Shown: positions 4,347 to 38,296, numbered from the stretch's first letter. The stretch: 64,000 nucleotides of DNA from Rhodospirillaceae bacterium (GCA_018660265.1 JABJKS010000059.1:124001-188000); one strand, 5' to 3'. Made by a program: numbers and translations. The notes: a model not told the origin generated them from the letters alone.

Positions 4347-4347
4347 T

Positions 4348-16261: not shown

Positions 16262-16300
16262 GTGGATGGGCTTCCTCGGTTCGTTATTTTGATTTTAACT

Positions 16301-17641: not shown

Positions 17642-18275
17642 CTAAGTCCTCGTTTCGTCTTTTCGCTGCCAGGAACGCGGGCCGGGCATAGGCACGGTCC
17701 CGATAGGCGCGACAGGAGGCAGGCAACGTCACTTCATAACGTTCGGCAAAATCCAGTGTCGAGGCCAGCAGGATATCCGCCGCGCTTATCGTCGCGCCAA
17801 AGATAAGATCCTCAATGTCCCCTATGGCAGGGGCGACGGCATTGATTTGCTTTAGACAATATTCCGCTGCAGAGGCCACCGCGACCGGTGCCTCGCCATA
17901 GATCTCGGGCAGGAATTTGTGCCGGCGGATCAGGTACAAAGAATGTGCATCCAACTCCATCATGGCGAAATAACTCCATTCATCCGCCCGGGCCTGTTCC
18001 ACTGGGTTTTGCGGCAGGTAGACATCTTTCCCCGCGCCATAGGTATTGAACAGATAGTTCACAATGGCCGGGCTTTCCGTCAGGGTAAAATCACCATCCT
18101 GGAGGGTGGGAATTTTCTGCTTTGGATTGAACCTGGTATATTCCGTCGTCAGGGTCTCACCCGTACGAGACCCGATGGGCCGGAATTGATAGCTCAAACC
18201 CAGCTCCTGCAAGGCCCAATGGACGCGTAGGGCGCGCAGGGAAATGGCGCCCCATAAAATGATCTCTCCACTCAT
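17631..18275 (-). CDS. Glutathione S-transferase family protein
   Basis: A 214-residue GST-fold protein. The start at 18275 is chosen because AAGGAAGG lies about 9 bases upstream and the ATG overlaps the preceding hydrolase stop (ATGA). A TTG nine bases further upstream has weaker support. The N-terminal thioredoxin-like half has the usual cis-Pro region (FNPKQKIPTLQDGDFTLTESPAIVNYL). The helical C-terminal half carries the ISAADILLASTLDFAERY motif. It could conjugate, dehalogenate or isomerise a pathway intermediate with glutathione. GSTs are common in catabolic operons and this one has no subclass signature that allows a firmer call. Confidence 0.85.
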   Translation of the reverse strand: MSGEIILWGAISLRALRVHWALQELGLSYQFRPIGSRTGETLTTEYTRFNPKQKIPTLQDGDFTLTESPAIVNYLFNTYGAGKDVYLPQNPVEQARADEWSYFAMMELDAHSLYLIRRHKFLPEIYGEAPVAVASAAEYCLKQINAVAPAIGDIEDLIFGATISAADILLASTLDFAERYEVTLPASCRAYRDRAYARPAFLAAKRRNEDLDAH

Positions 18276-19237
18276 GCGGACCAACCTTCCTTCAGAAAAC
18301 CATCCACGGTGCGCTGCAACGCCCCGCGTTGGTTCTCGATCAACAATGAATGGGTGCCGCCGCCGACCAGCACATAGCGCCGCTCCGCCGTATTGGACAA
18401 AAGATCAAACAACGCCTTGCCTTGTTCCGGTCGGGTTTCCCGGTCCCATTCGCCGACAATGATCATGGTGGGTGCCTGGATCAGGCTGGGATCATAAGGT
18501 TGCTGCTTGCCCAACAGACGTTTCTGTACATCCTTGACCACGCCGGCAGGGGCGCGGGCTTGCGGTGGGTCGTGTCGGGTGGCCTCTGGGTCCGAGGCCA
18601 GGAATGCCGTTGTCCAGGTCTTCATATGCGCCGGCGTGGCGATGGTGGAAATCTGGCTGTCGTCCAGTTCCCGGCACCAACGGGTGATCGCCGCCTCGGC
18701 ATCCACCATGCGGTAGGCTCCCGGCATTTGCCCCGTTGATATGGCACCGCCGGTTCCCATCCATGCCGCCCCATAGAGGACCAGACGCTCCACTTTTTCC
18801 GGACATTGCCCGGCATAAGTACCGCCAATCATGGTGCCCCATGAATAGCCGATCAGGGCCAGGCGGGGTAGCGACCGCTGAGCCAGAATAAAATCAACAA
18901 CCCGGCTCACATCGGCTACGGCATCGTCTGTATCCACCACAGGCGGGTTGTCCTCTGCCGGTACGGACATTTCCGCCGGCCGGTCCGATGCGCCATAGCC
19001 CAACAGATCAACGCACCAGATGTCAAAGCCGGCCCTGGCCATGATATCCATCCAAGAGACGCCATCTATGGCATAATCGAACGTCGCGGTGGATGGATAG
19101 GTCGCGCCATGGACGAACAGTACGGTTTCCGCCGGGTTGAACGTATCGCGATGCGCCAAACGCTTGTTGCGCACAAAAACGGACAGGCCCGGCCAGGCGC
19201 TTTCGACACGATGGTCAGTGATGCTCAGGTCTGACAT
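18272..19237 (-). CDS. Alpha/beta hydrolase
   Basis: A 321-residue alpha/beta hydrolase. The start at ATG 19237 has GGAG eight bases upstream; an in-frame start further upstream would run into the SDR gene. The oxyanion region is LFVHGATYPST, the nucleophile elbow is GYSWGTM, and the acid and His are likely in GEWDRETRPEQ and GGGTHSLLIE. No signal peptide is visible. It sits in the minus-strand catabolic operon between an SDR and a GST. It probably cleaves an ester, thioester, lactone or C-C bond of an intermediate. Confidence 0.87.
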   Translation of the reverse strand: MSDLSITDHRVESAWPGLSVFVRNKRLAHRDTFNPAETVLFVHGATYPSTATFDYAIDGVSWMDIMARAGFDIWCVDLLGYGASDRPAEMSVPAEDNPPVVDTDDAVADVSRVVDFILAQRSLPRLALIGYSWGTMIGGTYAGQCPEKVERLVLYGAAWMGTGGAISTGQMPGAYRMVDAEAAITRWCRELDDSQISTIATPAHMKTWTTAFLASDPEATRHDPPQARAPAGVVKDVQKRLLGKQQPYDPSLIQAPTMIIVGEWDRETRPEQGKALFDLLSNTAERRYVLVGGGTHSLLIENQRGALQRTVDGFLKEGWSA

Positions 19238-19259
19238 TGGCGTTGCTCCATAGACATTG

Positions 19260-20036
19260 CTAATCGACGGTCCAACCGCCATCGACCAGCAGAGAGGTTC
19301 CCGTGATCATAGAGGCGGCGGGAGAGGCCAGAAACAACACGGCGGCGGCGACATCGCCGATCTGGCCCAGGCGGGGTAATTTGATCTTGCCCTCTACATA
19401 ATCACGAAAATCCTTTTGCGCCAAACCGGCCTTGGTCATGGGTGTTTCGACAAAGGTCGGGGCTACGGAATTTACGCGAATATTTTGATCCGCCAATTCA
19501 AAAGCCATGGCTTTGGTCAGGCCCTCAATGGCGAATTTGGAGGCGGAATAAACACTGCGGTCCTGTAAGGCACGATGGCCCGCCTGGGAAGACATGTTGA
19601 TGATGCTGCCGCCCGTCTTATGCGCGGCCATCAGACGGGCGGCGGCCTGGGCGGCAAAGAAAGCGGCGCGCAGGTTCAGGTCCATAACCATGTCGAAGGT
19701 GTCTTCATCCACCTCCAGAAACGGTTGCGGGTGATTGGTGCCCGCATTGTTGACGAATATCTGAAAGGGAGGCAGTTCACCCAGCGCCTGGGACAGTGCT
19801 GTCGTCTCGGTCACATCACCGACCAGGACATGGGCTGTGCGGTCCAGGTCGATAATTTTCCGGGCGACGGCATCAAGGTCATGCTGGCTGCGTCCAATCA
19901 GGGCGACATCCGCACCCGCACCCGCCAGGGCGACGGCGCAGCCTTCCCCCAAACCGCGGGAGGCACCGGTCACCACGGCCAATTGGCCGTCCAGGCGAAA
20001 GCCCTCAATCGTATTTGCAATGTTCTCCGGGGTCAT
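19260..20036 (-). CDS. Short-chain dehydrogenase/reductase
   Basis: A 258-residue classical SDR. The NAD(P)-binding motif TGASRGLGEG begins near residue 24, NNAG is near residue 90, the catalytic Ser lies in INMSSQAGH, and the YSASK motif follows. Pro-Gly is replaced by VNSVAPTFVETPM after the active site. It overlaps the upstream lambda-crystallin-type dehydrogenase by ATGA at 20033-20036. It is likely an alcohol or 3-hydroxyacyl dehydrogenase working on the same carbon chain as its two oxidoreductase neighbours. Cofactor preference is uncertain. Confidence 0.9.
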   Translation of the reverse strand: MTPENIANTIEGFRLDGQLAVVTGASRGLGEGCAVALAGAGADVALIGRSQHDLDAVARKIIDLDRTAHVLVGDVTETTALSQALGELPPFQIFVNNAGTNHPQPFLEVDEDTFDMVMDLNLRAAFFAAQAAARLMAAHKTGGSIINMSSQAGHRALQDRSVYSASKFAIEGLTKAMAFELADQNIRVNSVAPTFVETPMTKAGLAQKDFRDYVEGKIKLPRLGQIGDVAAAVLFLASPAASMITGTSLLVDGGWTVD

Positions 20037-20977
20037 GCGCTGCTCTGCTTGGCTCTATGGGCGGCCAGGGCCATGAGACGGCGGTCACGCCAATTGCGGC
20101 GTTCCGCCAGTTTGCTGCTGGGTAATACGGCGCGGCGTTCCTTGTCCACGGCACTGATCAGATCCGTGCTCCACGGCGCTGGGTCCGTACGGGATTTTTG
20201 AATGGAATGATACAGCGGCCCCAACCGTTCCGCATAGTCGGCGACGCCGCCCGGGGCATTCATATCAATGGTCTCAAAAGGCCCCATGAAGGACCAGCGC
20301 AGGCCCAGGCCTTCGGACACAGTCTTGTCAATATCTTCGGCTGAGGCATAACCCTCCTGAAACAGATCCCAGGCCTCTCGCAACAGGACCCCTTGCAGGC
20401 GGTTAAGAATAAAACCCTCCACCTCCCGGCGCACCAGGACAGGCGACTGCTTGACCTCAGCCATTAATGCCAGGGCCCCATCGATGGCGTCCTGTGCCGT
20501 CCAGGGCGCGGGGACCACTTCGACCACCGGGGCCAAATAGGGTGGGTTGACCGGATGGGTGACCAGAAATCGTTCCCGGTTCGGGGCACTTTCTGTAAAG
20601 GCGGAACTGGGAATGCCGGAGGTGGAGCTGCCCACGATGGCACCGTCAGCGAGTAAAGGGCCGATGGCATTGGAGATTTCGGTCTTCACATCCGTACGTT
20701 CAAACACGGATTCCTGGATGAAGCGCGCGCCGTCCACGGCATCGCCTAGATTTTCACAAACGGTAATCCGCGCAAGGATCGCCCGGACGTCATCAACCAG
20801 ATTAAAACTTTTCAAATCGTCCAACTGGCCTGTGATAATCTCCATAAATTCGTCGCGTATGGCCGCAGAGGAGTCATAGACGCGCACCTGCTCCCCTGCG
20901 CGGGCAAAGACAATCGTCCAGCCGCCGCCAACCAGGCCGGCCCCGACGATGCCTATATGCCCAGTCATCAGTGTCAC
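20033..20977 (-). CDS. 3-hydroxyacyl-CoA dehydrogenase family (lambda-crystallin / gulonate or carnitine dehydrogenase-like)
   Basis: A 314-residue NAD-dependent dehydrogenase with IGIVGAGLVGGGW as the dinucleotide fold near residue 8. The signature THPVNPPYLAPVVEVVP follows, and EGFILNRLQGVLLREAW gives the C-terminal helical domain. These segments resemble lambda-crystallin (L-gulonate 3-dehydrogenase) and L-carnitine dehydrogenase more than the FadB-type enzymes. The GTG start at 20977 overlaps the last base of the HisD-like stop. An ATG at 20968 is an alternative. It oxidises a 3-hydroxy acid or acyl-CoA, using a conserved His and Asn of the family. Confidence 0.88.
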   Translation of the reverse strand: MTLMTGHIGIVGAGLVGGGWTIVFARAGEQVRVYDSSAAIRDEFMEIITGQLDDLKSFNLVDDVRAILARITVCENLGDAVDGARFIQESVFERTDVKTEISNAIGPLLADGAIVGSSTSGIPSSAFTESAPNRERFLVTHPVNPPYLAPVVEVVPAPWTAQDAIDGALALMAEVKQSPVLVRREVEGFILNRLQGVLLREAWDLFQEGYASAEDIDKTVSEGLGLRWSFMGPFETIDMNAPGGVADYAERLGPLYHSIQKSRTDPAPWSTDLISAVDKERRAVLPSSKLAERRNWRDRRLMALAAHRAKQSSA

Positions 20978-22290
20978 TATGCCGGTTCCACCGCCGTATA
21001 GGGCGGCACGTTACGCCCGCCATAGCGGCGTACCCGTACGTTGGCCTGTTCCGCGTGGCCCGCGAAGCCCTCCAACATGCACAGGCGGGAGCAATATTCC
21101 CCGATCAGGGCCGAGGCCTCGTCGGTTAGGACGCGCTGGTAGGTATGGGTCTTGATGAATTTGCCCACCCATAAGCCGCCCGTATAGCGACCCGCCCGCT
21201 TGGTGGGCAGGGTGTGGTTGGTCCCGATCACCTTGTCCCCATAGGAAACGTTGGTGCGGGGCCCCAGGAACATGGCACCATAGTTGGTCATATTATCCAG
21301 GAAGTATTCGGGGTCTTCGGTCATCACCTGAACATGTTCAAAGGCCAGGCGGTCGGCTTCCGACAGCATTTCTTCGTCACTGTCACATAGTATGACGGCA
21401 CCATAGTTGGCCCAGGATTCACGGGCAATCTCTGCTGTGGGCAGGATCTTCAGCTGACGCGCGATCTCTGCCATGGTGTCTTTGGCCAGGGCCTCTGACG
21501 TGGTCAGCAATACGGCGGGCGAGGTGGGCCCATGTTCCGCCTGGCCCAGCAGATCGATGGCGCAAAGCTCCCCATCACTGCTGTCATCGGCAATGATCAG
21601 GGTTTCTGTGGGGCCTGCGAACAGATCGATGCCGACCCGGCCATAGAGCTGCCGTTTCGCCTCCGCCACGAACATATTGCCGGGCCCGACCAGCATATCG
21701 ACGCCGGTGACGGTTTCGGTGCCCAGGCCCATGGTGGCCACGGCCTGAATGCCGCCCAGGACCAGAATTTCATCTGCCCCGCCCATGTGCATGGCGGCGA
21801 CGATGGCCGGATGGGGGGCTCCCCCCTGGGGTGGGGCGGAGGCAACGATACGGGGGACGCCCGCGACCTTCGCCGTCACCACGGACATATGGGCCGAGGC
21901 GACCATGGGATATTTGCCGCCCGGTACATAACAGCCAACGGAGTTGACGGGGATGTTCTTATGACCCAAGACAACGCCGGGCATGGTCTCAACCTCTATG
22001 TCGCGCAGTGCGTCTTTTTGGTGCTGGGCGAAGTTGCGCACCTGCGTTTGGGCAAAGCGGATGTCGTCCAGATCACGCTTGGCGACATTTGACATGGCGG
22101 CCTCAATCTCTGTCTCGGACAAGCGGAATTTTTCCGGGCTCCAACGATCGAATTTTTCTGACAATTCCCGCACAGCAGCATCGCCGCGCGCCTCAATATC
22201 ACTCAATATGCCCTCGACCTGGACCCGCACCTTGGCATCGGCCTCGTCAACCTCCGCCTGACCAAGCCCTTGTTTCAGGTATCTTGCCAT
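20977..22290 (-). CDS. HisD-family dehydrogenase (histidinol or sulfopropanediol dehydrogenase-like)
   Basis: A 437-residue HisD-fold enzyme. The ATG at 22290 has a GAGAGG ribosome binding site, whereas an earlier in-frame start lacks one. Family motifs include [12 protein letters not shown], the [16 protein letters not shown] segment, [12 protein letters not shown] and [19 protein letters not shown]. The gene stands in a catabolic operon and not among histidine genes. The [11 protein letters not shown] stretch fits the HpsN-type clade (sulfopropanediol 3-dehydrogenase) better than true HisD. By inference it performs an NAD-dependent two-step oxidation of an alcohol to a carboxylate. It appears to be the first gene of the minus-strand operon that runs to 12902. 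Confidence 0.85.
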
Positions 22291-22353
22291 ATCGCCTCTC
22301 CCATAATTTATTGAGGAGAGCCTAGCCAACATCGCCATTGCGCGCTAGATGCC

Positions 22354-24552: not shown

Positions 24553-24834
24553 ATGATAGTGTCGCTTCGTCACAAAGGTTTGCGGTTATTCTATGAAACG
24601 GGCAGCGCCAAAGCGTTACCGTCTGAGCAAGCCTCGAAGATACGCCGGATTTTGACTGCAATTGATGAAGCCAATGACCCAGAGGAGATTGGGTTGTTTC
24701 CCGGTTGGCGGTTGCACCCACTAACTGGAGACATGCAAGGGTTTTGGAGCGTGACCGTCACGGGCAACTGGCGGATTATTTTCCGCTTTGCAGATGGTGA
24801 CGCCTCGGACTTGGATTTCATCGATTATCATTAG
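24553..24834 (+). CDS. higB: HigB-like toxin (RelE/ParE superfamily)
   Basis: A 93-residue toxin with the HigB start pattern MIVSLRHKGLRLFYETGS. It continues with FPGWRLHPLTGDMQGFWSVTVTGNWRIIF and ends in DLDFIDYH. Such proteins are ribosome-dependent mRNA endonucleases. The basic/aromatic residues of the NWRIIFRF strand and the final His are family positions. Toxin precedes antitoxin, as in higBA and unlike relBE. The gene is 15 bases upstream of higA. The start codon directly follows the operator palindrome. Confidence 0.92.
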   Translation: MIVSLRHKGLRLFYETGSAKALPSEQASKIRRILTAIDEANDPEEIGLFPGWRLHPLTGDMQGFWSVTVTGNWRIIFRFADGDASDLDFIDYH

Positions 24835-24849
24835 AGGAGACGTTTTATT

Positions 24850-25149
24850 ATGGCGATGAACAGCCCCGCACATCCAGGCGAGATGATCCGGGAAGAGGTT
24901 TTAAATCCACTTGCGCTGGATGTAACGAAAGCGGCTTCCGTATTAGGCGTGACCCGACCGGCCTTGTCCCGACTGCTGAACGAAAAAGCAGCCCTGTCGC
25001 CGGAAATGGCTTTGCGGATCGAGAAAGCCTTTGGCCCGAAAGCGGATCACCTTATGCGAATTCAGCTCGCATACGACATGATGCGCGCCCGTGCCAAGGC
25101 GGGTCAGCTAAATGTATCGACGGAATATGCTGACCGGTCCTCTGTTTGA
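24850..25149 (+). CDS. higA: HigA-like antitoxin, HTH (Xre) family
   Basis: A 99-residue antitoxin of the HigA/VapA type. It begins with the typical PAHPGEMIREEVLNPLAL segment, followed by a helix-turn-helix in VTKAASVLGVTRPALSRLLNEKAALSPEMALRI. It neutralises the upstream toxin and most likely binds the palindrome at 24528-24551. GGAGACG lies upstream of the ATG. The pair is complete and shows no decay. Confidence 0.94.
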   Translation: MAMNSPAHPGEMIREEVLNPLALDVTKAASVLGVTRPALSRLLNEKAALSPEMALRIEKAFGPKADHLMRIQLAYDMMRARAKAGQLNVSTEYADRSSV

Positions 25150-26495: not shown

Positions 26496-27107
26496 CTATG
26501 ATGCGGTGTTTTTGAAGCTGTCCCGCTCTGCCACGCGGGCGAAATAGGCTTGCAAATTCGGGCTGTTCGCCATGTTTTCCTTACCCTCGGGGAAGGTTTG
26601 GACCCCCGCCAGCATGGGCACAAGGAAGCAGTCGGCCATGCTAAAGCTGTCACCGCCCAGATATCCGTCTGCGACGGCAGCATCCAAAAATTTGAACATT
26701 TTAGGCAGGCGTTTGACCGTCTGGTCGATGACGTCGCGAACCACGTTGCCGTCCTTGTCCTTGTGGAAGGCGTATTCGACGACATATTTGCGCATGATCA
26801 TCTGATCGACAGTGGTGTTTACGGTCATGATCCAGCGGTTCACGACCGCCGCCGCCCGGGGTTCAGTGGGCACCAGGGCGGGGCCGTCAAAGGCCGTGTC
26901 GATGTAGTGCGCAATGGCATAGCTTTCCACCAGGTCCAGGCCGTCGTGGCGCATGACGGGGATGTAGCCGAAGGGATTGATGGCTTTGACCTCGTCCGAA
27001 TGGGGCATGGCGGCGATATGCTCGTATGGCACGCCCTTTTCCTCTGCCACCATACGCACGGTGCGGACAAAGTTAGAGCGCGGGAAGCCGATAATTTCTA
27101 AAGCCAT
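26496..27107 (-). CDS. Glutathione S-transferase family protein
   Basis: A 203-residue GST. The N-terminal half has GFPRSNFVRTVRMVAEEKG (Ser/Asn at the glutathione-activating position) and the cis-Pro region NPFGYIPVM, then DLVESYAIAHYID. The C-terminal helical half carries DSFSMADCFLVPML. The ATG at 27107 has GGAG seven bases upstream. It is distinct from the GST at 17631-18275, with a different N-terminal motif. Its place between PhyH, PAS and EthD genes suggests detoxification or side-chain catabolism, but no substrate is evident. Confidence 0.88.
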   Translation of the reverse strand: MALEIIGFPRSNFVRTVRMVAEEKGVPYEHIAAMPHSDEVKAINPFGYIPVMRHDGLDLVESYAIAHYIDTAFDGPALVPTEPRAAAVVNRWIMTVNTTVDQMIMRKYVVEYAFHKDKDGNVVRDVIDQTVKRLPKMFKFLDAAVADGYLGGDSFSMADCFLVPMLAGVQTFPEGKENMANSPNLQAYFARVAERDSFKNTAS

Positions 27108-27187: not shown

Positions 27188-28024
27188 CTATATCTTGGCA
27201 CCCTTCATCAGAATTGCTTTGACGGCCTTGTTTGCCCCCTCACGAAAGGCCACGGCGTCCGGGTGCATGTCTGATTGGGGTCGGGGTACGGTGTCGAAAT
27301 GGTTGTAGCGATCCTCACCCCGAACTAAAAGGGACGTGGTGCGTCCGCCGATCTGTTTGCAATAGGTAGGAATATAACGGATCACGAAACCGTGCCGGGG
27401 TACTTCTGTGCGGTTCGGCTCCGACCCGTGGACGACCAGGACATGGTGCAGGGACATCTCGCCCGGCTGCAGTACGATATCCACTGCATTGTCTTCGTCA
27501 ACATCGACATCCAGCGCCTGACCACGGCTGAGAAGATTGTCGGCCTTATAGGTATCGCTGTGGCCCAGCTGTCCCTGAATATGGGTGCCCGGTGACATCC
27601 GCATACAGCCACTTTCCGGCGTGGAAGGCGTCAGGGCGATCCAGGCGGTGACGATGTCCGCCGGCTCCAGCCCCCAATAGGTTGCGTCCTGATGCCAGGT
27701 GACGAAACTGGGATCATTTGCCGGTTTGGAAAAGAACGATGATGACCAGCATAGAATATCCGGGCCCAGGACATCTTCCACATGGTCCAAAACGCATGGG
27801 TCATTGACCAGATCGAACAGTTCGGGAAAAACAAAATGCGAATTGGAACCCAACAGTCCCTTGGCCTCATCGCCATAGGTCTCATAGATGCCGGCAATTT
27901 TGTCAGCTAGGTGGCTGGCCCGTTCCGCTGACATGACCCGGATCGGGCTAAGGAAACCCTGCGCCTGATACGCCTCATGCGCCATCGCCGCAGCTGTCTT
28001 TGTCTCTGGCATTGTCTCCGGCAT
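27188..28024 (-). CDS. Phytanoyl-CoA dioxygenase (PhyH) family oxygenase
   Basis: A 278-residue Fe(II)/2-oxoglutarate-dependent oxygenase. The iron ligands are His111 and Asp113 (TWHQDATYWG) and distal His199 (LVVHGSEPN). A downstream Arg in HGFVIRYIP would bind 2-oxoglutarate. The segment ESGCMRMSPGTH is also characteristic. Bacterial PhyH relatives hydroxylate small natural products, phosphonates, ectoine or fatty acyl groups. The ATG at 28024 has GGAG upstream. It heads a minus-strand run (PhyH, GST, PAS, EthD) separated from the GST by 80 bases. Confidence 0.92.
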   Translation of the reverse strand: MPETMPETKTAAAMAHEAYQAQGFLSPIRVMSAERASHLADKIAGIYETYGDEAKGLLGSNSHFVFPELFDLVNDPCVLDHVEDVLGPDILCWSSSFFSKPANDPSFVTWHQDATYWGLEPADIVTAWIALTPSTPESGCMRMSPGTHIQGQLGHSDTYKADNLLSRGQALDVDVDEDNAVDIVLQPGEMSLHHVLVVHGSEPNRTEVPRHGFVIRYIPTYCKQIGGRTTSLLVRGEDRYNHFDTVPRPQSDMHPDAVAFREGANKAVKAILMKGAKI

Positions 28025-28088: not shown

Positions 28089-28114
28089 CCGGTGGTTGAT
28101 CTATTCTCCACCGG
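28089..28114 (-). terminator. Possible weak terminator after the FecR gene
   Basis: CCGGTGG (28089-28095) and CCACCGG (28108-28114) can pair with a 12-base loop. On the minus strand the stem is followed by TTTAC, so the U tract is short. The right arm overlaps the last codons of the FecR gene. Confidence 0.3.
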
Positions 28115-31004
28115 GCAAGGGCACGCTGGCTGTCTTTGTGGCGGCAACGATGCCGGCGGCCTGATAGTCAGTGCCGGTAACACGAAAACCGCCTGCTACT
28201 TCTGCGGCTGTATCGCCGCCGCCGCCATAGAAGGCACCATTGATTGCCAAGGTACGATCCTCGCCGCCACCGCTAATCGCCACACCAAATGTGCCTTGGG
28301 ATCCGGCAACGCCGGTGCGGGTATATGTCTCGCCGTCAAAATCCGGGACGGTAATGGAATAGCTATAGCTGCCGGGGCCGTTGAAATCGACAACCTGCTC
28401 ATAGCTGCCAGCGGCCAGATAAAGCTGCCCTGCATTGATGACGCTGCCGATCAAGTGGCCCTGATAGGTTGCGCGAATGCCAGTCGGCAGAGTGCAACCA
28501 TTGCAAATATCGCCGCCTGCGACCCAGGTCGCCAGATGAATTCGAGCGTTTTCGTCACCAGCCGAGCCATCGAAATGGGTGCCGCCCCAGAAGCCCCACT
28601 TAACGTACTCGCATACGCAAAGTTCGGTGCCGTCGGGCAGGAAGTTGTTGCTGTCGAAATAGTTCGACGTGACGAGGTAGAATTTTGCATCGCCGTCGAC
28701 TTGATTTGTCAAAAAGCCGCCTGTATTGAATGAACTGATTAAATCCGGATTCTCAATCGCCGCGAATGTGTCGTCATCCAGATAGACGCTTTCAGCGCCT
28801 GCCGTGCAGGGGCTGTTGGTACAGCCAAAATAAACAGCAACATCGTTGCCACGGTCGTCAAACAGATCGAGCAAATGAAATTCGGCACTGAAGGATCGTT
28901 CCGATGCGTCAAATGTCAAAAAGACATCGCTGGGGAAGATGCCATTGGGATTTGGCGTTTCATTGCAACAGGCCCCGTCATTCTCGAATACGAAGGGACG
29001 ATCGCTTCCCGTGGCCAGTTCACCGTCAAACAACACATACTGTGCCACACCGGCGGCATATCCACGCAATTGCGTCAGGGTGCGGCTTCCCGTGGTGCCT
29101 GACGTCGCCGTGGCAATGACCGCCGGTCGGAACATTGCTGCATTTGAGGGGTCTGTCTGGAAATGCTCGTTTGCCCCGCCGCTGCCCGCAATAAGGGTGA
29201 AAGCGTTTGGTGCCGCAGTGCCAAAAAAGGCGTTGCTCCCGTCTTCGACCGAACTGCGTTCCGTCTCAGCCGTGGACGAAAAACCGAAAACGGTTTCCGT
29301 GCCGGGCGCTTGGGAGGTGCCGCGCATCTCCGCAAAAAGTTCGGCGGATGACGGATTGTCTCGGTCCAGTACATAGCCAACGAATACGCCCGCGGCAGAG
29401 GTTTGGCCCGGGCCCGAACCCTCGACAGCAATACGCCAGCCGGCAAACGGCGGCAAGTCTCCGGCACTCCAATCGATGAAGGCACCACCTTCGCCCGGTG
29501 GGACGCCGCTGCCGCCGGAGATGCCACGCACGAACGGTACGGAGGACCCCAAGACAAAATCGGGCCGCAAGGCATAGTGCATCGTCGTGGCAGTTCCCAG
29601 CGCCGGTGCCGGCGTTGGCAGGCCGGCCCATGCCATGACACGAATGTCGTCGTCCTCAAGTAGGGTAAACTCATAGATAAGAAAGTCCTGGCTGGGCAGC
29701 AATGTGCCGAAGCCGGTGACGGGGGCGTCCAGGATTTGGCTTATGGGAAAGGTGCCGGCTTCGACCACGCCAATGTCAAGGTCGTCTCCCACCCGCGCCG
29801 TAAAAAAGCCATCGAGAACGATACCGCCTTCGACCGGGAAGTCTGCTTCATAGCCAATATCCGCAGTCTCATTAAACACAGTTAAATAGAGGCGCCCGGC
29901 CCAGTTCCCTGGCAGGGTCAACGGCACAGCGACTTCTATCGGCACCTGGGGCTCCACTATCACCGGGGGCTCCGTTATCACGGGTTCCAGCACGACTGTC
30001 GGTTCCAGTAATGGCGGCAGCCCTAATTCCGATGGCGGAATACAGTTTGTTTGGCCGATCTCGGCGCATATTGGCAGTGGTTCGATAGGCGTTTGGCTTG
30101 CATCTTTAAGAATGCCTTCACCCTCGGTTTCAAGCCCGGCAATGGCACCAAGCGGCGCGCCTCCAGGCCCGGCCGATGTGACGCTATTGGGATTATTATC
30201 CGAGCCAAGACTGGCCATCTGACTGTTCGCCACGTCATCATCGCCAACCGCCGGCCCGCCGCCCGCCGGCGCGATTGCCGCGAGTTGTTCCGGTGTCTGT
30301 TCGCCGTCATCGCCTGGTGGGGGTGTTTGCGGCTCTTCCAACGCTGCCAGCGCCTGGTTCAGTTGGGCTTGTGTCGCCTTTTGCGGTGACGACACGCCGC
30401 CGCTGTTTTGGGAAATCATAAAGCCGGGGCGGGTGATGGATTGGGTCTGGTTCCCCACCTGCATGGTGACCCGATCGCCGTACAGCATAGTTGCAGCGGC
30501 AGGCGGCAGGGTCTGGCCGTTATTTTGTGCCGCTGCAATTTGCTGTGGCGTGTTAACTTGCACGATGGCGACGCCACCGCGGATACCGATCACGGCGGTC
30601 GGGGCCTTGAACAGCACGGCGTTCTTCTTGGAGATCCTGCCGCCGACAAAGCGAAACAGGCCCTTGGAAACGTTGACGACAAGTTCGCCTTCCTTTGCCT
30701 CGGAATCATAGACGAATTTGTCCAGACGCAGCGAGGCATTTGGCCCGATGGAGATGGTGGAGCCGTCTACGAACAACAAATGTGTCTGGCCGGTGGCACC
30801 GGTTTCGATCTGCTCATTAGCTTGCAAGTCCAGGCCAACCTGCAAAATCCGCGCCTCCGCACCAGGTGGGGTGCCGTGGGCTGCTGGACGTACCGCCGCC
30901 GGCACACCGATTTTCGGTAATCCCGCGGTTGCAGGGCCTGCTATAGCCAGCAGCAATGACAGGCCAATAGCGGTCCTGAAAATCATACGCGTTGCACTAA
31001 ACAT
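28101..31004 (-). CDS. Large exported FecR-domain protein with TbpB-like C-terminal barrel
   Basis: A 967-residue secreted protein; ATG 31004 is preferred over the adjacent GTG. Residues 1-28 form a signal peptide ending PATAG. A FecR-type domain covers about 50-160, with THLLFVDGSTISIGPNASL and APTAVIGIRGG. A Pro/Glu/Val-rich linker follows near residues 210-350, with repeats such as VLEPVITEPPVIVEP. The C-terminal half is beta-rich and Gly-rich. The last 60 residues (AFYGGGGDTAAEVAGGF, then YQAAGIVAATK) match the end of transferrin-binding-protein-like barrels. Cysteine pairs occur (ACCNE, CVCEY, CNGC). It may act as an envelope surface protein or signal receptor. No FecI/FecR regulator pair is adjacent. 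Confidence 0.75.
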   Translation of the reverse strand: MFSATRMIFRTAIGLSLLLAIAGPATAGLPKIGVPAAVRPAAHGTPPGAEARILQVGLDLQANEQIETGATGQTHLLFVDGSTISIGPNASLRLDKFVYDSEAKEGELVVNVSKGLFRFVGGRISKKNAVLFKAPTAVIGIRGGVAIVQVNTPQQIAAAQNNGQTLPPAAATMLYGDRVTMQVGNQTQSITRPGFMISQNSGGVSSPQKATQAQLNQALAALEEPQTPPPGDDGEQTPEQLAAIAPAGGGPAVGDDDVANSQMASLGSDNNPNSVTSAGPGGAPLGAIAGLETEGEGILKDASQTPIEPLPICAEIGQTNCIPPSELGLPPLLEPTVVLEPVITEPPVIVEPQVPIEVAVPLTLPGNWAGRLYLTVFNETADIGYEADFPVEGGIVLDGFFTARVGDDLDIGVVEAGTFPISQILDAPVTGFGTLLPSQDFLIYEFTLLEDDDIRVMAWAGLPTPAPALGTATTMHYALRPDFVLGSSVPFVRGISGGSGVPPGEGGAFIDWSAGDLPPFAGWRIAVEGSGPGQTSAAGVFVGYVLDRDNPSSAELFAEMRGTSQAPGTETVFGFSSTAETERSSVEDGSNAFFGTAAPNAFTLIAGSGGANEHFQTDPSNAAMFRPAVIATATSGTTGSRTLTQLRGYAAGVAQYVLFDGELATGSDRPFVFENDGACCNETPNPNGIFPSDVFLTFDASERSFSAEFHLLDLFDDRGNDVAVYFGCTNSPCTAGAESVYLDDDTFAAIENPDLISSFNTGGFLTNQVDGDAKFYLVTSNYFDSNNFLPDGTELCVCEYVKWGFWGGTHFDGSAGDENARIHLATWVAGGDICNGCTLPTGIRATYQGHLIGSVINAGQLYLAAGSYEQVVDFNGPGSYSYSITVPDFDGETYTRTGVAGSQGTFGVAISGGGEDRTLAINGAFYGGGGDTAAEVAGGFRVTGTDYQAAGIVAATKTASVPLPGGE

Positions 31005-31192
31005 CACACCCCAACCCTTTGTCTGACGAGCCTACCCCCATAATACCCTTAATTATTTTTTTACCATAATATACGACATGGCAAATTCGAGGCAATGCAT
31101 ATTCATGGTTAACGCCAGGACGAATTTTGCCGGCGATAGATTGGTGATATGTGTCGTAATATCAGTTGAACAATAATTCGGGATGCTCAATC

Positions 31193-32242
31193 ATGAAATT
31201 CGGTTACTTCACGCTATCGGATAACGCCTATCCGGATAATCCGCGCAGCGCTAACCAGTTCGTGGCTGAAATCAGGGCCCAGGCCATATTGGCGGATCAA
31301 TTGGGCTATCACTCCGCCTGGATCGGGGAACATCATTTTGACTCCCTCGGGGTAAATTCCCGTCCCGGCACCTTGTTGGCCAGCATTATCCCCGAAACCA
31401 CGAATATTCGCCTGGCCCCTGCGGTCAGTGTCCTGCCCCTGCATCACCCCCTGCACGTGGCGGAGGAATGGGCGACGATTGATCTGATCTCCGGCGGGCG
31501 GGTGGATTTTGCCGCCGGGCGTGGTTATGACGCCCGGGAGTTCGCACCCTTTGGCGCGCCTTTTATGGATTCAGCCGAGATATTCGAGGAGGGAATGGAA
31601 GTGGTCCTCAAGGCCTGGAACTCGCCGGGCCCCTGGTCCCACAAGGGGCGGTTCTACGACATCCCCACGATGGAGATGACGCCAAAGCCCGTGCAACAGC
31701 CGATCCCCTTTTATGTCGCTTCATTCTCCGAGACCTCCGCCGATATGGCGGCTAAACATGGCCTGAATATCATCTACGCACCTTTTGCCGCCGGTATGGT
31801 CTATGGCGGGTTGGAGCCTGCGGTGGAGAGCTATCGGGAAAAGTGCCAGGCGCGGGGCAACAAGCCGGGCCGGGCCATGTGCAGCTATTTCATCCATATT
31901 GCCGACGATCCCGGGTCGGAGGACTATGGCCGGGAGTGCCAGATGGATTATTTTCGTCATTGTGTTCTGCCCGCCTTTCCCGATGACCTGGCCAAGGCAC
32001 CCCCCACCATGCACTATTTCATGGATATCGTGGCTATCCTGCAGAATATGAAAAAGGAAGATTTGGGTGAACGTTCCATACTAATCGGCTCCCCGGCCAA
32101 GATCATCGATAGCCTGAAACGGGTGGAAGCCGCCGGGATTGAGGAGGTCATTTTGTACTTCAACGTCGGCAACAAGCCTGATGGAATGGTGCGTGAGCAG
32201 ATGCACCGCTTTCAAGAAGAGATAGCGCCGGCCTTCAACTAG
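31193..32242 (+). CDS. LLM-class flavin-dependent oxidoreductase (luciferase-like monooxygenase)
   Basis: A 349-residue luciferase-like TIM-barrel flavoprotein. The start at ATG 31193 (MKFGYFTLSDNAYPDN) is taken; an in-frame start 27 bases upstream adds residues not typical for the family. Motifs are AWIGEHHFDSLG, APAVSVLPLHHPLHVAEEWA and GRVDFAAGRGYDAREFAPFG. Such enzymes use reduced FMN or F420 to oxygenate substrates. It is 46 bases upstream of a class III aminotransferase and probably starts the operon that runs to 38296. A 185-bp divergent gap separates it from the FecR gene. Confidence 0.92.
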   Translation: MKFGYFTLSDNAYPDNPRSANQFVAEIRAQAILADQLGYHSAWIGEHHFDSLGVNSRPGTLLASIIPETTNIRLAPAVSVLPLHHPLHVAEEWATIDLISGGRVDFAAGRGYDAREFAPFGAPFMDSAEIFEEGMEVVLKAWNSPGPWSHKGRFYDIPTMEMTPKPVQQPIPFYVASFSETSADMAAKHGLNIIYAPFAAGMVYGGLEPAVESYREKCQARGNKPGRAMCSYFIHIADDPGSEDYGRECQMDYFRHCVLPAFPDDLAKAPPTMHYFMDIVAILQNMKKEDLGERSILIGSPAKIIDSLKRVEAAGIEEVILYFNVGNKPDGMVREQMHRFQEEIAPAFN

Positions 32243-32288
32243 AGTCTAAACTGGCGGACGTTGAATTTTCCAATGTCGGGAGCCATCC

Positions 32289-33662
32289 ATGAACATCATG
32301 CCTAATTCCGCCGCCGCGCGGGACATCGCCTATTATATCCATCCGCAAACCAATCTGCGCCGCCATGCCGAAGTTGGCCCGGTTATCGTCAGCCACGGTG
32401 ACGGCGTCTATGTGACGGACGAAAACGGCAACCGTTATATGGAAACGGTGGCGGGTTTGTGGTGTGCGGCGTTGGGTTTTTCCGCCAACGAACGGATTGC
32501 CAAGGTGGCTTATGATCAGATGCGCAAACTTGGCTATTATCATACCTATCGCCACACCGCGAACGAGAGCAGCATCGACCTGGCCGAAAAACTGATCCAG
32601 CTGGCACCGGTGCCAATGTCCAAGGTGTTGTTCCAATGTTCCGGCTCGGAAGCCAATGACACGGCGGTGAAGCTGGCCTGGTATTATCAGGCCGCCATGG
32701 GCCGGCCTGACAAAATCAAAATCATTGGCCGCGAGAGGGGCTATCACGGCAGTACCATTGCCTCCGTCAGCGTCTCGGGCAAACCGGACATGCACGCGGA
32801 TTTTCCCCTGCCATTGCCCATGATGCGGCATACGGAGTACCCCCATTATTATCGCCAGCATAGGGATGGGGAGAGCGAGGAGGAATTTGCCACCCGTATG
32901 GCGGAGGCGTTGGAAAATCTGATCCTGGCGGAAGGGCCCGACACGGTTGCCGCCTTCTTTGCCGAGCCTGTCATGGCCGCAGGCGGTGCCATCGTGCCGC
33001 CAAAGACCTACTTCGCCAAAATGCAGGCGGTCTTGAAAAAGTATGATGTGTTATTCATCGCTGACGAAGTGGTCTGTGGATTTGGCCGCACGGGCAGTTG
33101 GTGGGGCAGCCAGACCTTTGATTTACAGCCCGACATGATTTCCTGCGCCAAGGCTCTCTCGGCGGCCTATCAACCCATATCGGCCCTGATGGTGAATGAG
33201 AAAATTCACCAGGCCATGCTGGCCCAAAGCGACAAGCTGGGGGCTTTTGCCCATGGTTATACCCACGCGGGCCACCCGGTCACCACGGCGGTGGCCCTGG
33301 AGGTCATCAATATCTATGAGGAAATGGATATTGTTGAGAGGGCCCAGCGGGTCGGCGGACGCATGTTGTCCGGTTTGCAGGCTTTGGCGGCGCACCCGAT
33401 GGTGGGCGATGTGCGGGGCGTCGGCTTTTTGGCAGGTATGGAACTGATGGCGGACAAGGCCACGCGAACCCCGTTCGAGGCGGGTACGGCAGGTGCCGCA
33501 GCCGACAAGTTCGGGCGTCAGAATGGCCTGATCCTGCGGGTCATTGGTGATCGTCTGGCCTTTGCCCCGCCGTTGATTATCACCGAGGATGAAGTCGACC
33601 ATATGTTGGCGATGTTGTCCAAAACCCTTGATCAAGCGCACGCGGAGCTGACGACGGCATAA
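32289..33662 (+). CDS. Class III (omega-type) aminotransferase
   Basis: A 457-residue PLP aminotransferase. The PLP lysine is Lys288 in SCAKALSAAYQP, with FIADEVVCGFGRTG before it and FQCSGSEANDTAVK near residue 115. The family includes beta-alanine:pyruvate, 4-aminobutyrate, 6-aminohexanoate and taurine transaminases, which act on distal amino groups. TAATG overlaps the start of the second hyuA at 33662. This makes a lactam or hydantoin-derived omega-amino acid a good candidate substrate. The true donor and acceptor are unknown. Confidence 0.93.
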   Translation: MNIMPNSAAARDIAYYIHPQTNLRRHAEVGPVIVSHGDGVYVTDENGNRYMETVAGLWCAALGFSANERIAKVAYDQMRKLGYYHTYRHTANESSIDLAEKLIQLAPVPMSKVLFQCSGSEANDTAVKLAWYYQAAMGRPDKIKIIGRERGYHGSTIASVSVSGKPDMHADFPLPLPMMRHTEYPHYYRQHRDGESEEEFATRMAEALENLILAEGPDTVAAFFAEPVMAAGGAIVPPKTYFAKMQAVLKKYDVLFIADEVVCGFGRTGSWWGSQTFDLQPDMISCAKALSAAYQPISALMVNEKIHQAMLAQSDKLGAFAHGYTHAGHPVTTAVALEVINIYEEMDIVERAQRVGGRMLSGLQALAAHPMVGDVRGVGFLAGMELMADKATRTPFEAGTAGAAADKFGRQNGLILRVIGDRLAFAPPLIITEDEVDHMLAMLSKTLDQAHAELTTA

Positions 33663-35773
33663 TGATCCGGGTTGCCTTTGACATCGGTGGCACGTTCACC
33701 GACTTCGTTCTGAGTGATGGCGGAGAAGATGGCGGGGCCAGTCATTTTCTCAAAGTCCCGTCGACACCCAAAGACCCCAGCCAGGCCGTGCTGGCGGGGC
33801 TGGATGTTCTCTTCCGCCAAGCTGATATCGGGGCTGATATCGGGGCCGAAGCCGTTGACAGCGTCCTCCACGCAACCACCGTGGCCACCAATGCCGTGCT
33901 GGAACGCAAGGGGGCAGCAACCGGTTTGATCACCACAGATGGTTTCCGTGATGTCTTGATCATTGGCCGGCAAAAACGCTTCGAGACGTACGATCTGTAT
34001 ATTGAAAAGCCTGAACCGCTGGTGCCCCGCCGGCATATATTTGAGGTGCTGGAGCGTCTGGATCACAACGGCGATGTGGTGCTGTCCCTGGATATGGCCT
34101 CCGTCGACCGGGCCATTGATGCCCTGGTTGCCGCAGGCCGGGAAACAGTGGCGGTATCCCTGCTGCACGCCTATGCCAATCCGATCCACGAACAGGCCAT
34201 CCGGGCCCGTATTCATGAACGCGCGCCGGGGCTGTCGGTCTCTATCTCATCCGAAGTCGCGCCGAAATTTCGTGAGTACGAACGGACCAACACCACCGCC
34301 GCCAATGCCTATATCAAACCCATTGTCGAACAATACATCACCCAGCTGCAGGGTGCTTTGGCACAACTTGGCTTCACCAAAGATTTGTTTGTGATGCAAT
34401 CCAGCGGCGGCTTGGTGTCCCCCACTATCGCCAAATCCTATCCCATCCGGATTATCGAATCCGGGCCTGCCGCCGGCGTCCTGATGGGCGGCATCGTTGG
34501 TAAAAGTGAGGGCCGGGATCACGTCATCACCTTCGATATGGGCGGTACCACGGCCAAACTGGGGGCGGTAGATAATGGCGCGCCGGCGATCATGCCGACG
34601 TTTGAGATCGACCATGTGCGCTATAAAAAGGGCAGCGGCCTGCCCATTAATGTCCCGGCTGTGGAATTGTTGGAGATCGGTGCCGGCGGCGGCTCCATCG
34701 CCCGGGTCGATATGGGTATGATTGCCGTGGGCCCGGAAAGTGCGGGGGCTGATCCGGGGCCCATATGCTATGGCCGGGGTGACCGCAACCGCGACACCTG
34801 GGCCCCGACGATCACCGATGCCAACCTGGTGTTGGGCTATATTGATCCTGACTGGTTCAACGGCGGGACCATGCGCTTGGACAAGGCTGCGGCTGAGGCC
34901 GGTATCATGGCGGCAATTGGCGAAAAGTTGGATTTAGACCTGGGCCAGGCTGCCTGGGGTATTCATCTTGTTGCCACCATGAACATGGAAAATGCCCTGC
35001 GCATTGTTTCGGTAGAGCAGGGGCGCGATCCCAGGCGTTATGCCATGATCGCATTTGGCGGTGCCGGGCCATTGCACGCTGCACGTCTGGCCCGTGCGGT
35101 GGGTATCCCAACGGTGATCGTGCCCCATGGCGCCGGTGTCGGGTCCGCTATTGGGCTGCTACAGGCAGCCCCCCGTATAGATGTTTCCATGACCAGGGTG
35201 ATGGAATTGAATGGCGATGCGGGGCCCGCCATCGCCGCTGTCTATGAGGAATTGGAAGCCAGGGCGCGCAATGACATAGAACAATTCGGCAGTGCCGCAG
35301 CGCCGCAATGGTCGCGCCGGGGTTATATGCGCTATGCCGGGCAGGGCTTTGAGGTTCAGGTCGATTTGCCTGATGGTGCGATCGGGGATGACTTCGGTGA
35401 TCAGGCCATCGCCGCCTTTAATCAGGCTTATATGCAAAAGCATAAATTCCTGGATCCCGAAGCCCGTATCGAGGCCGTGGATTGGACCTTGGTGGCGACC
35501 CTGCCCAGCGGTCATGAAGGCAGCCCGATCCGAAGTCATGAAACAGCGGACGAGGGAGCCCGCAGCGGCAGCCGCCCCGCCTGGTTCCCCGAGGCTGGCG
35601 GCTATGTCGAGACGCGGATCGTTAACCGCGCGGCCCTGGCCAAGGGTGAAACAATATCCGGCCCCGCGATCATCGAGGATCCTGACAGTACGACAGTGGT
35701 CCTGCCGGGAGACCTGGCGCGGATCAGCGAAAATGGCCATCTGATTATAGACGTTGAGGGGGCGGCATCATGA
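33662..35773 (+). CDS. Hydantoinase/oxoprolinase family protein, subunit A (second copy)
   Basis: A 703-residue HyuA subunit. Its N-terminus is IGGTFTDFVLSD, followed by HATTVATNAVLERKGA, ESGPAAGVLMGG, DMGGTTAKLG and AGGGSIARVDMG. It has the same architecture as the 2238-4346 gene but clearly different sequence, so the two are old paralogues rather than a recent duplication. An exact 12-bp tandem repeat (33821-33844) gives GADIGADIGAE, an in-frame duplication near residue 58. It overlaps the aminotransferase by one base and hyuB by four. It should couple ATP hydrolysis to opening or carboxylation of a cyclic amide or ketone. Confidence 0.92.
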   Translation: MIRVAFDIGGTFTDFVLSDGGEDGGASHFLKVPSTPKDPSQAVLAGLDVLFRQADIGADIGAEAVDSVLHATTVATNAVLERKGAATGLITTDGFRDVLIIGRQKRFETYDLYIEKPEPLVPRRHIFEVLERLDHNGDVVLSLDMASVDRAIDALVAAGRETVAVSLLHAYANPIHEQAIRARIHERAPGLSVSISSEVAPKFREYERTNTTAANAYIKPIVEQYITQLQGALAQLGFTKDLFVMQSSGGLVSPTIAKSYPIRIIESGPAAGVLMGGIVGKSEGRDHVITFDMGGTTAKLGAVDNGAPAIMPTFEIDHVRYKKGSGLPINVPAVELLEIGAGGGSIARVDMGMIAVGPESAGADPGPICYGRGDRNRDTWAPTITDANLVLGYIDPDWFNGGTMRLDKAAAEAGIMAAIGEKLDLDLGQAAWGIHLVATMNMENALRIVSVEQGRDPRRYAMIAFGGAGPLHAARLARAVGIPTVIVPHGAGVGSAIGLLQAAPRIDVSMTRVMELNGDAGPAIAAVYEELEARARNDIEQFGSAAAPQWSRRGYMRYAGQGFEVQVDLPDGAIGDDFGDQAIAAFNQAYMQKHKFLDPEARIEAVDWTLVATLPSGHEGSPIRSHETADEGARSGSRPAWFPEAGGYVETRIVNRAALAKGETISGPAIIEDPDSTTVVLPGDLARISENGHLIIDVEGAAS
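33821..33844 (+). repeat. 12-bp perfect tandem duplication inside hyuA
   Basis: GCTGATATCGGG occurs twice back to back (33821-33832 and 33833-33844). It is in frame and adds four residues to HyuA. It looks like a slippage or short duplication event. Confidence 0.85.
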
Positions 35774-37452
35774 CGCGTGATAAATCAGTGGACCCGATTA
35801 CTCTGACCGTGATCTGGAATACCTTGATGTCCATTGCCGAGGAATTGGGCACCACTTTGCGCAACACCGCCTTTTCCGAAGGGGTGCGGGAGGGAGATGA
35901 TTTCGCCACCGCCTTGTTCGACCGCACGGGACGCCTGATTGCCCAGGGCAATTTCAGCCCCGGCCATCTCGGCTCCATGACCGCCTGTGCCCGGCACGCT
36001 ATCGAATACTTTCCGCCCGACACTTTGCGCCCCGGCGACAGCATTCTGTTGAATGACAGCTTCATGTGTTCCGGCCATTTCCCGGATACCTTTCAGGTCA
36101 TGCCGATTTTTGTCGACGACGGCCTGGTTGGATATGTCGCCTGTTCCGCCCATCAGGTGGATATGGGCGGGGCGGCACCGGGCTCGCAAAAAGTTCATGG
36201 GGTAACGGAAGCTTTCCAGGAAGGTTTGCGCATTCTGCCCGTGCGTTTCGTCCGTGAAGGCCAGATTGACGAAGACATCCTGCGTCTGGTTCTGGGCAAT
36301 GTACGCATGCCCGACAAAGTGCGCGGCGATTTGCTGGCGCAGCATACGGCGAATTTAAGTGCCGCCTCCCGCCTGCAACAACTGTTCCGCGAGCATGGCG
36401 ATACGACCCTGGCGCAGGCTTACGAGATTATACTGGATCGATCCGAGGCCGCCATGCGCGCCGCCCTGGCAGCGGTGCCTCGCGGTACTTACAGTTTCGA
36501 TGATTGTATGGATGATTACGGCCCGGGCACGGATCCCATCAAAATCTCCGTGGACATCACCTTTGACGGTGTCGGCGCGGTGGAGCTCGATTTTTCCCGC
36601 TCCTCCGACGCAGTACCTGCTGCCATCAATTCCTACATCAACTACACCCGCGCCTATGCCATCTTTGCCATCAAGGTTTTTTGCGATGCCCTGCAACCGC
36701 AGACAGAGGGCAACATGCGGCCCATTACCGTGACCGCACGGGAGGGGTCGTTTTTTAATCCGGCCTTCCCTGCACCTTCGGGCGGGCGGGCTATATTGCA
36801 GGTACGCATTTTCGATGCCATCAATGGTGCTATTGCCCAGGCCCTGCCACATAGGGCCATGGGGGCCTTTTCCCATTGGTCGAACCCCAATATTGGTGGC
36901 ATCCATGATGATACCGGCCGGCCCTTCGTAATGTATGACCTTTCCCTCGCGGGTTACGGCGGGCGTCAGGGCAGGGACGGTGTTGAGGCATTAAGCCCGG
37001 TGATGAATTGCTCGAACATTCCAGTGGAGGTGCACGAGACCCATAACCCGGTCCGGATACGCCGCCTGGAATTCATCCCCGATACCGGCGGGCCCGGGCA
37101 ATGGCGCGGCGGTTGCGGTCTACGCAAGGATATTGAACTGTTGAACTCCACCGCTGTTTTGTCGCACCTGGGCGACCGCCATCGTTTTCAGCCCTATGGC
37201 CTGTTTGGTGGCGGGCCTGGTGCCTTGGGCGAAACCTTTTTGAATCCGGACGGTAATGCGGAACCTTTGCATTCAAAGGGCATGTATGATTTGAAAAAAG
37301 GCGATGTGGTCAGTTTCCGCCTGTCGGGCGCGGGCGGCTACGGCCCGGTAGATGCGCGTGATCCTGAAGCCGTCAGGGAGGATATGGCTGACGGCTATAT
37401 CACGGAGGAAGGGGCAAGGCATGACTACGCTTGGCAGGCCGAACCTAAGTAG
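35770..37452 (+). CDS. Hydantoinase family protein, subunit B (second copy)
   Basis: A 560-residue HyuB subunit starting with ATGA overlap at 35770. It has the N-terminal DPITLTVIWNTLMSIAEE, the LNDSFMCSGHFPDTF motif near residue 100 in place of the NDPY...GGNH of the first copy, HQVDMGGAAPGS, and GPGQWRGGCG near the C-terminus. It pairs with the upstream HyuA to form the ATP-dependent enzyme. The difference at the NDPY/NDSF motif suggests the two HyuB proteins handle different substrates. It overlaps the downstream desaturase start by 32 bases. Confidence 0.92.
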   Translation: MTRDKSVDPITLTVIWNTLMSIAEELGTTLRNTAFSEGVREGDDFATALFDRTGRLIAQGNFSPGHLGSMTACARHAIEYFPPDTLRPGDSILLNDSFMCSGHFPDTFQVMPIFVDDGLVGYVACSAHQVDMGGAAPGSQKVHGVTEAFQEGLRILPVRFVREGQIDEDILRLVLGNVRMPDKVRGDLLAQHTANLSAASRLQQLFREHGDTTLAQAYEIILDRSEAAMRAALAAVPRGTYSFDDCMDDYGPGTDPIKISVDITFDGVGAVELDFSRSSDAVPAAINSYINYTRAYAIFAIKVFCDALQPQTEGNMRPITVTAREGSFFNPAFPAPSGGRAILQVRIFDAINGAIAQALPHRAMGAFSHWSNPNIGGIHDDTGRPFVMYDLSLAGYGGRQGRDGVEALSPVMNCSNIPVEVHETHNPVRIRRLEFIPDTGGPGQWRGGCGLRKDIELLNSTAVLSHLGDRHRFQPYGLFGGGPGALGETFLNPDGNAEPLHSKGMYDLKKGDVVSFRLSGAGGYGPVDARDPEAVREDMADGYITEEGARHDYAWQAEPK

Positions 37453-38296
37453 GGATCAATGGTCGGCGCTGCTTGTCACCTCCAACTGGCGGGGGGCGGT
37501 GCACTTGGCCGGTCACCTGGGACTGCTGGCGATCACATCCACATTGATTTTGGCAAAGGTTCCCTTGTGGCCGGTACTGTTGCTGCCCCAGGGCATTTTA
37601 CTGATCTTCCTGTTCGCGCCCCTGCATGAATCCGTCCACCGCACGGCGTTTCGCAGCAAATGGTGCAACGATGCGGTGGCATTCTTTTGCGGCTGGCTTT
37701 TGCTGTTGCCGCCGATCTGGTTCCGCTATTTTCACATCGCCCATCACCGCTTTACCAATCTGGCCGACAAAGACCCGGAACTGGCCATTGAAAAGCCCGA
37801 TAGCCGGATCGAATATATTGTCTATTTGTCCGGCATTCCTATTTGGGCCTCGCGATTTCAGGATCTGCTTGGTCATACCCATGGCCGGAATATCGGTGAA
37901 TTTGTCCCACGCAAGGCACAGAACCACGTTGCAATGGAAGCGCGATGGTTTCTGGCCCTTTACGTCATTGCCTTTGCCCTCGCCGGTGAACAGTTATTGC
38001 TGATTTGGGTCTACCCGGCCCTTATTGGGCAGCCGTTTCTGCGGGCATTTTTATTGGCGGAACATTGGCAATGCCCGCAGATCCCCGATATGCTGGCCAA
38101 CACCCGGACAACATTCACTACCGCCGCTATGCGCAAGCTCACTTGGAATATGTGCTACCACGCGGAGCATCACGCCCAAAAGGCAATACCGTTCCACAAA
38201 TTGCCGGAATTCCACCGCCATACGGCACCGCACTTGAAGGTAACCCAGGGTGGCTATTTCAACCTGCACAGAGCTATATGGCGGGGTTTTCCGTAA
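37421..38296 (+). CDS. Membrane fatty acid desaturase family protein
   Basis: A 291-residue membrane di-iron enzyme. The three histidine boxes are HESVH (about residue 69), HIAHH (about 108) and HAEHH near the C-terminus. Hydrophobic segments lie around residues 25-65 and 80-100 and near 185-210. The ATG at 37421 has GGAGGAAGGGG upstream and lies inside the end of hyuB, which suggests co-translation. An in-frame start further upstream would only extend into hyuB. It could desaturate or hydroxylate a lipid-like substrate. Its place in a hydantoinase operon is unusual. Confidence 0.85.
   Translation: MTTLGRPNLSRDQWSALLVTSNWRGAVHLAGHLGLLAITSTLILAKVPLWPVLLLPQGILLIFLFAPLHESVHRTAFRSKWCNDAVAFFCGWLLLLPPIWFRYFHIAHHRFTNLADKDPELAIEKPDSRIEYIVYLSGIPIWASRFQDLLGHTHGRNIGEFVPRKAQNHVAMEARWFLALYVIAFALAGEQLLLIWVYPALIGQPFLRAFLLAEHWQCPQIPDMLANTRTTFTTAAMRKLTWNMCYHAEHHAQKAIPFHKLPEFHRHTAPHLKVTQGGYFNLHRAIWRGFP

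Follow-up and report, generated by a model that had tools for sequence, protein, structure and literature searches.

Organization of the locus

The window, that is, the whole stretch of 64,000 nucleotides that was analysed, carries five genes on the plus strand which a preliminary description had taken as one operon. ORF calling and family scans placed all five at the same coordinates as before. The features of the locus, in window coordinates, are the following.

26496..27107, minus strand: glutathione S-transferase-like gene on the divergent side (family scan and synteny)
27188..28024, minus strand: PhyH-type dioxygenase, divergent partner (family scan)
28101-31007, minus strand: long FecR-domain-like ORF between PhyH and the operon
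31193..32242, plus strand: LLM (luciferase-like) flavin-dependent oxidoreductase, optional member (Bac_luciferase, 1.2e-53)
32289..33662, plus strand: class III (omega) aminotransferase (AT), PRK06105 subfamily (Aminotran_3, 2.4e-91)
33662..35773, plus strand: HyuA, ATP-binding (ASKHA) subunit of the hydantoinase/oxoprolinase family, Glu266/Lys299 class (Hydant_A_N/Hydantoinase_A/Hydant_A_C, best 1.8e-82)
34457..34459, plus strand: codon of HyuA Glu266, at the CapA Asn269 position (alignment)
34556..34558, plus strand: codon of HyuA Lys299, at the position of CapA Asp302 and Apc alpha' Lys281 (alignment)
35770..37452, plus strand: HyuB, predicted metal-dependent hydrolytic subunit (Hydantoinase_B, 3.6e-155)
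37421..38296, plus strand: membrane fatty-acid-desaturase-like di-iron enzyme (FA_desaturase, 1e-31)

As described before, the AT, hyuA and hyuB genes are joined by start/stop overlaps, which are 1 base for AT/HyuA and 4 bases for HyuA/HyuB. HyuB and the desaturase gene overlap by 32 bases, and the desaturase start at 37421 is backed by an MTT... start common to the relatives. The gap between LLM and AT is 46 bases. All five genes of the presumed operon are real, but the LLM gene is not always part of it.

Conservation of the operon across the genus

Synteny was compared in the window genome and 10 further genomes of its genus (n = 11). The AT, HyuA, HyuB and desaturase genes stand in this order in 11/11 genomes and mostly overlap; in G008 a contig end truncates the AT. 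This core is kept in order in all 10 other genomes, which is more than chance. When the five-gene order was searched for, as had been suggested, only the four-gene part was found throughout, and the order with LLM was present in 6/11 genomes (G000, G002, G003, G005, G009, and G008 across a contig break). Where present, the LLM gene has the divergent PhyH gene on one side and AT on the other. It is missing at the operon in G001, G004, G007 and G010, and no orthologue was found elsewhere in these four genomes. G006, in which a contig ends at the site and the rest of the genome gave no LLM orthologue, was counted neither way. Because at least 4 of the 11 genomes have the same operon without LLM, the earlier proposal that the LLM enzyme provides an obligatory first oxidation fails. 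The genus synteny therefore replaces the five-gene operon with a four-gene core, an optional LLM gene and a divergent oxygenase.

The PhyH gene was found in 10/11 genomes, where it is either adjacent to the operon or at the contig end that corresponds to this place. In most relatives it is divergent and lies directly beside AT/LLM, across the promoter region from the operon. The FecR-like ORF separates PhyH from the operon only in the window and in G007, and the two ORFs share 59% identity, much below their neighbours. The glutathione S-transferase-like gene, next to PhyH and to yajQ (it follows YajQ in most genomes), is possibly only a bystander. The core has no conserved partner gene for an aldehyde dehydrogenase, a transporter or a regulator. 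In a second genus, HyuA, HyuB and AT are together at one locus (L077) with 66/75/67% identity. Across the genus itself, the identity is 58-85% for the desaturase versus 85-95% for HyuB.

HyuAB belongs to the two-subunit amidohydrolase branch

Of the solved chains, the one named N-methylhydantoinase (7hk5) matches both HyuA and HyuB best, followed by caprolactamase 6yra (bit scores of HyuA and HyuB with these two: 420 and 334; 240 and 201). In contrast, the subunits of acetophenone and acetone carboxylases are far weaker matches than these amidohydrolase chains. The ATP-site motifs and four metal ligands of CapAB have been described (PMC8453981). In the alignment, the ATP motifs DxGGT, DMGGT and GxxPGP are all kept in HyuA, and the Asp-His-Asp-His metal site is kept in HyuB (D44, H103, D106, H128).

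Two-subunit amidohydrolases (Hyd) are recognized by two genes, no gamma, the subunit lengths and a beta-contact motif (PMC5214803). At this locus the gene order is A then B with no gamma or epsilon gene, HyuA (703 aa) and HyuB (560 aa) have Hyd-type lengths, and the beta-contact motif ERxDxxG is present in HyuA. The same order, lengths, motif and lack of gamma are seen in the Hyd enzymes OplAB and N-methylhydantoinase. Neither a carboxylase gamma (or Apc epsilon) gene nor the long alpha/beta subunits were found beside HyuAB. Judged by these sequence criteria, HyuAB belongs to the Hyd branch and is a predicted two-subunit ATP-dependent amidohydrolase.

A Glu/Lys active-site class of HyuA

In CapA, Asn269 and Asp302 are located around the expected substrate site, and Asp302 corresponds to Lys281 in Apc alpha' (PMC8453981). 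The window HyuA has Glu266 at the position of Asn269 and Lys299 at the position of Asp302. The second phosphate loop thus has Lys instead of Asp, paired with the Glu, a change seen in no solved Hyd member. Among the solved chains, the Glu/Lys pair occurs only in the alpha' subunit of acetophenone carboxylase (5l9w chain b), whose Glu248/Lys281 are at the same alignment positions and whose site was tentatively assigned to bicarbonate by its authors. This enzyme differs in its apcABCDE organisation, in its alpha' that does not touch beta, and in its low overall similarity to the window HyuA. The model scores gave no sign that the Glu/Lys class is closer overall to ApcA, as HyuA scored 187 bits to the ApcA model versus 488 bits to the CapA model.

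In the 59 HyuA motifs from genomic loci, Glu goes with Lys in 35/35 cases and any other residue goes with Asp in 24/24 cases. With a loosened motif pattern, which brought a few spurious matches, the Pfam-based sample of other Proteobacteria gave 5 Glu/Lys sequences and otherwise another residue with Asp, one spurious match aside, and the window genome gave 8 Glu/Lys, one Gln/Lys and the rest Asp, so that the pairing rule has one exception across the two sets. In a quick tree of 79 rows, which has long branches and leaves out the full-length Apc alpha', the Glu/Lys sequences group into one large clade (SH-aLRT 99), to which the window HyuA belongs and which also takes in a single Gln/Asp row; the solved chains of CapA, N-methylhydantoinase, Apc alpha and Acx beta fall outside.

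Because many Hyd-type HyuA proteins also carry Glu/Lys, the pair by itself is not diagnostic of carboxylases. CapAB activity depends on bicarbonate (PMC8453981), and this dependence together with the Apc alpha' pair makes a carboxyphosphate role of the Glu/Lys class a sharp and testable question. The class could be catalytically distinct, activating bicarbonate as carboxyphosphate like Apc alpha' while docked on HyuB, and opening or carboxylating oxidised N-heterocycles; the operon would then be a new route joining such an enzyme, a desaturase-like hydroxylase and a transaminase. We regard this extended proposal as rather unlikely. The use of bicarbonate in the family is directly testable via the two residues. 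The Glu/Lys versus Asp split is also a simple residue test, which could help to sort proteins called hydantoinase or oxoprolinase. What is of most general interest here is the Glu/Lys class, along with the extent of the HyuAB expansion described below, more than the operon alone.

The aminotransferase, the desaturase-like enzyme and the LLM protein

The AT scored 682 bits against the PRK06105 model (cut-off 517), which places it in this subfamily. It keeps the PLP Lys288, the carboxylate-binding Arg417 and the pocket Trp58 in the alignment with solved relatives. Among its best solved matches is 6g4b (510 bits), which we take to be the caprolactam-pathway transaminase of Pseudomonas jessenii (6-aminohexanoate transaminase).

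The desaturase-like protein has the Pfam FA_desaturase domain and the three histidine boxes of the superfamily (H69/H73, H105/H108/H109, H247/H250/H251), which are invariant in seven relatives. It scored far under the cut-off of every named NCBIfam desaturase/hydroxylase model, and the sequence search returned no solved relative. The AlphaFold model built from 7 sequences had a pLDDT of 41, too low for use. The domain and histidine boxes indicate that the protein is likely a hydroxylase or desaturase. Lactam pathways are not known to have a desaturase partner. The closest desaturase homologue (48-49%) is directly before a urocanate hydratase gene in two other genera of the family (L121:7533-10294 and L122:3717-6358), and the two genes overlap in G011. 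A histidine/imidazole link was considered from these orthologues (G011, G013) and not upheld, because hutU of the genus sits with a hutH-like gene elsewhere and the more distant desaturase homologues have no common surroundings.

The LLM protein does not reach the cut-off of any named LLM subfamily. Across the whole genome, neither the LLM genes (p about 0.09-0.16) nor the PhyH genes (p about 0.35) lie significantly close to HyuB genes. LLM orthologues (81% and 55%) were also seen in two other genera near different HyuA/HyuB pairs and amidohydrolase genes (L120:8499-17269 and L123:6082-14976).

Proposed function of the operon

The locus is best read as an operon for the aerobic catabolism of a cyclic amide, which may be a lactam, an oxo-N-heterocycle or a hydantoin-like ring, because of the relatives of the AT, the two-subunit amidohydrolase type and the lack of carboxylase gamma/epsilon genes. 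We propose it tentatively, with a chance somewhat below even. The substrate would first be oxidised by an oxygenase, which may be PhyH, the desaturase-like di-iron enzyme, or LLM where present. As its ATP motifs suggest, HyuA would activate the ring amide with ATP, either directly as a phosphorylated lactim or via carboxyphosphate, and HyuB, with its intact metal motif, would hydrolyse the activated amide at the metal site. From its subfamily and residues, the omega-AT would then pass the freed amino group to pyruvate, and an aldehyde or ketone would be formed. Several points stand against the cyclic-amide reading. Both subunits are far below the caprolactamase cut-offs, the pocket has the Glu/Lys of Apc alpha', no aldehyde dehydrogenase, transporter or regulator is conserved, the desaturase has no known counterpart in lactam pathways, and the LLM and PhyH genes show no significant genome-wide closeness to HyuB genes. 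No described cluster of this kind was found in the literature that was searched.

The closest known system is the caprolactam pathway of P. jessenii GO3, in which a HyuAB-type lactamase (CapAB) and a related omega-AT (PjAT) are likewise clustered (PMC6061476, PMC8453981). The ATP motifs and metal ligands of CapAB are kept here. The earlier proposal of HyuAB-type lactam opening followed by a class III aminotransferase is supported as a resemblance of pathways, but not for caprolactam itself. HyuA reached 488 bits and HyuB 263 bits, about half and a quarter of the cut-off of 1000 for both CapA and CapB (equivalogs NF050156 and NF050157), and the substrate pocket is changed at N269E and D302K of CapA and Y136Q of CapB (Tyr136 is Gln140 in HyuB). 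Caprolactam was therefore rejected as the substrate. True caprolactam degradation, although it uses the same two enzyme families (PMC6061476), is highly improbable, with no oxohexanoate dehydrogenase or adipate genes beside the operon. Unlike the P. jessenii cluster, this locus lacks the 6-oxohexanoate dehydrogenase and has in addition the desaturase-like enzyme, the PhyH dioxygenase and, in some genomes, LLM.

The main rival is that HyuAB activates bicarbonate as carboxyphosphate and carboxylates a ketone which the AT makes from an amine, acting as a gamma-less carboxylase. The AT gene immediately 5' of HyuA agrees with this, as do the Glu/Lys pair shared with the alpha' subunit, tentatively assigned to bicarbonate, and the bicarbonate requirement of CapAB itself (PMC8453981). 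However, the overall similarity is to amidohydrolases instead of carboxylases, no gamma/epsilon gene accompanies the Hyd-type subunits, and the window HyuA keeps the beta-contact motif whereas alpha' has no beta contact. A ketone carboxylase, which had been named earlier as the outcome that would overturn the lactam proposal, is thus disfavoured, with a small probability, and a bicarbonate step is kept as a rival because HyuA has the Apc alpha' pair.

The name of the top solved match, N-methylhydantoinase, and the many paralogues in the genome would suit an ordinary 5-oxoprolinase or (N-methyl)hydantoinase locus with unrelated neighbours. We consider this unlikely, since the Leu/Asp pocket of most family members is missing in the window HyuA and the AT and desaturase synteny kept across the genus argues that the neighbours are not random. 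Two adjoining modules were also considered, in which AT-HyuAB catabolism lies next to a lipid-modifying desaturase, and LLM and PhyH were inserted from expanded pools. The faster divergence of the desaturase, the unrelated surroundings of its distant homologues, and the gain or loss of LLM among the genus genomes speak for this arrangement. The HyuB-desaturase pair is missing from no genus genome, however, and the two genes overlap in the window, and separate modules appear improbable. The cyclic-amide operon remains our preferred reading.

HyuAB expansion in the genome and other features of the window

The window genome (5.5 Mb) has 24 Hydantoinase_A and 23 Hydantoinase_B matches, together with 77-78 LLM genes and 26 PhyH genes. 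For comparison, 0 to 6 Hydantoinase_A matches were counted in each of 59 other Proteobacteria. By these counts the organism is a catabolic specialist with many loci of this kind, of which the operon is one. SAR202 genomes likewise have many flavin monooxygenase paralogues (PMC5395668, PMC6946804), with up to 114 copies (PMC6946804). The difference is that the organism here is an alphaproteobacterium with expansions of HyuAB and PhyH as well; hydantoinases are not mentioned in the paper on the SAR202 pangenome (PMC6946804). By our own reading, the isolate names of the relatives refer to metagenomes from the Arabian Sea, the Caspian and other marine or saline sites, and the organism is probably marine. 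Chemically, cyclic amides and oxidised N-heterocycles are stable compounds, and most of the environmental genes for opening their rings have no assignment yet. With two dozen HyuAB pairs, each of which may act on a different ring, this genome would be a good place to look for such genes.

The window itself contains a second HyuA/HyuB pair (2187-6081, plus strand), a candidate amide-degrading cluster. Before it lies an amidase-like ORF (665-1840), and after it come a protein of the class C beta-lactamase family (6081-7229) and then a TPP enzyme (7254-8840). An unusual grouping on the minus strand (12902-22338) comprises a fused biotin carboxylase/carboxyl transferase (1119 aa), an amidase and a histidinol-dehydrogenase-family protein. 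At 24553-25149 on the plus strand, a small gene pair resembles, by sequence appearance, a HigB/RelE-type toxin and a HigA-type antitoxin.
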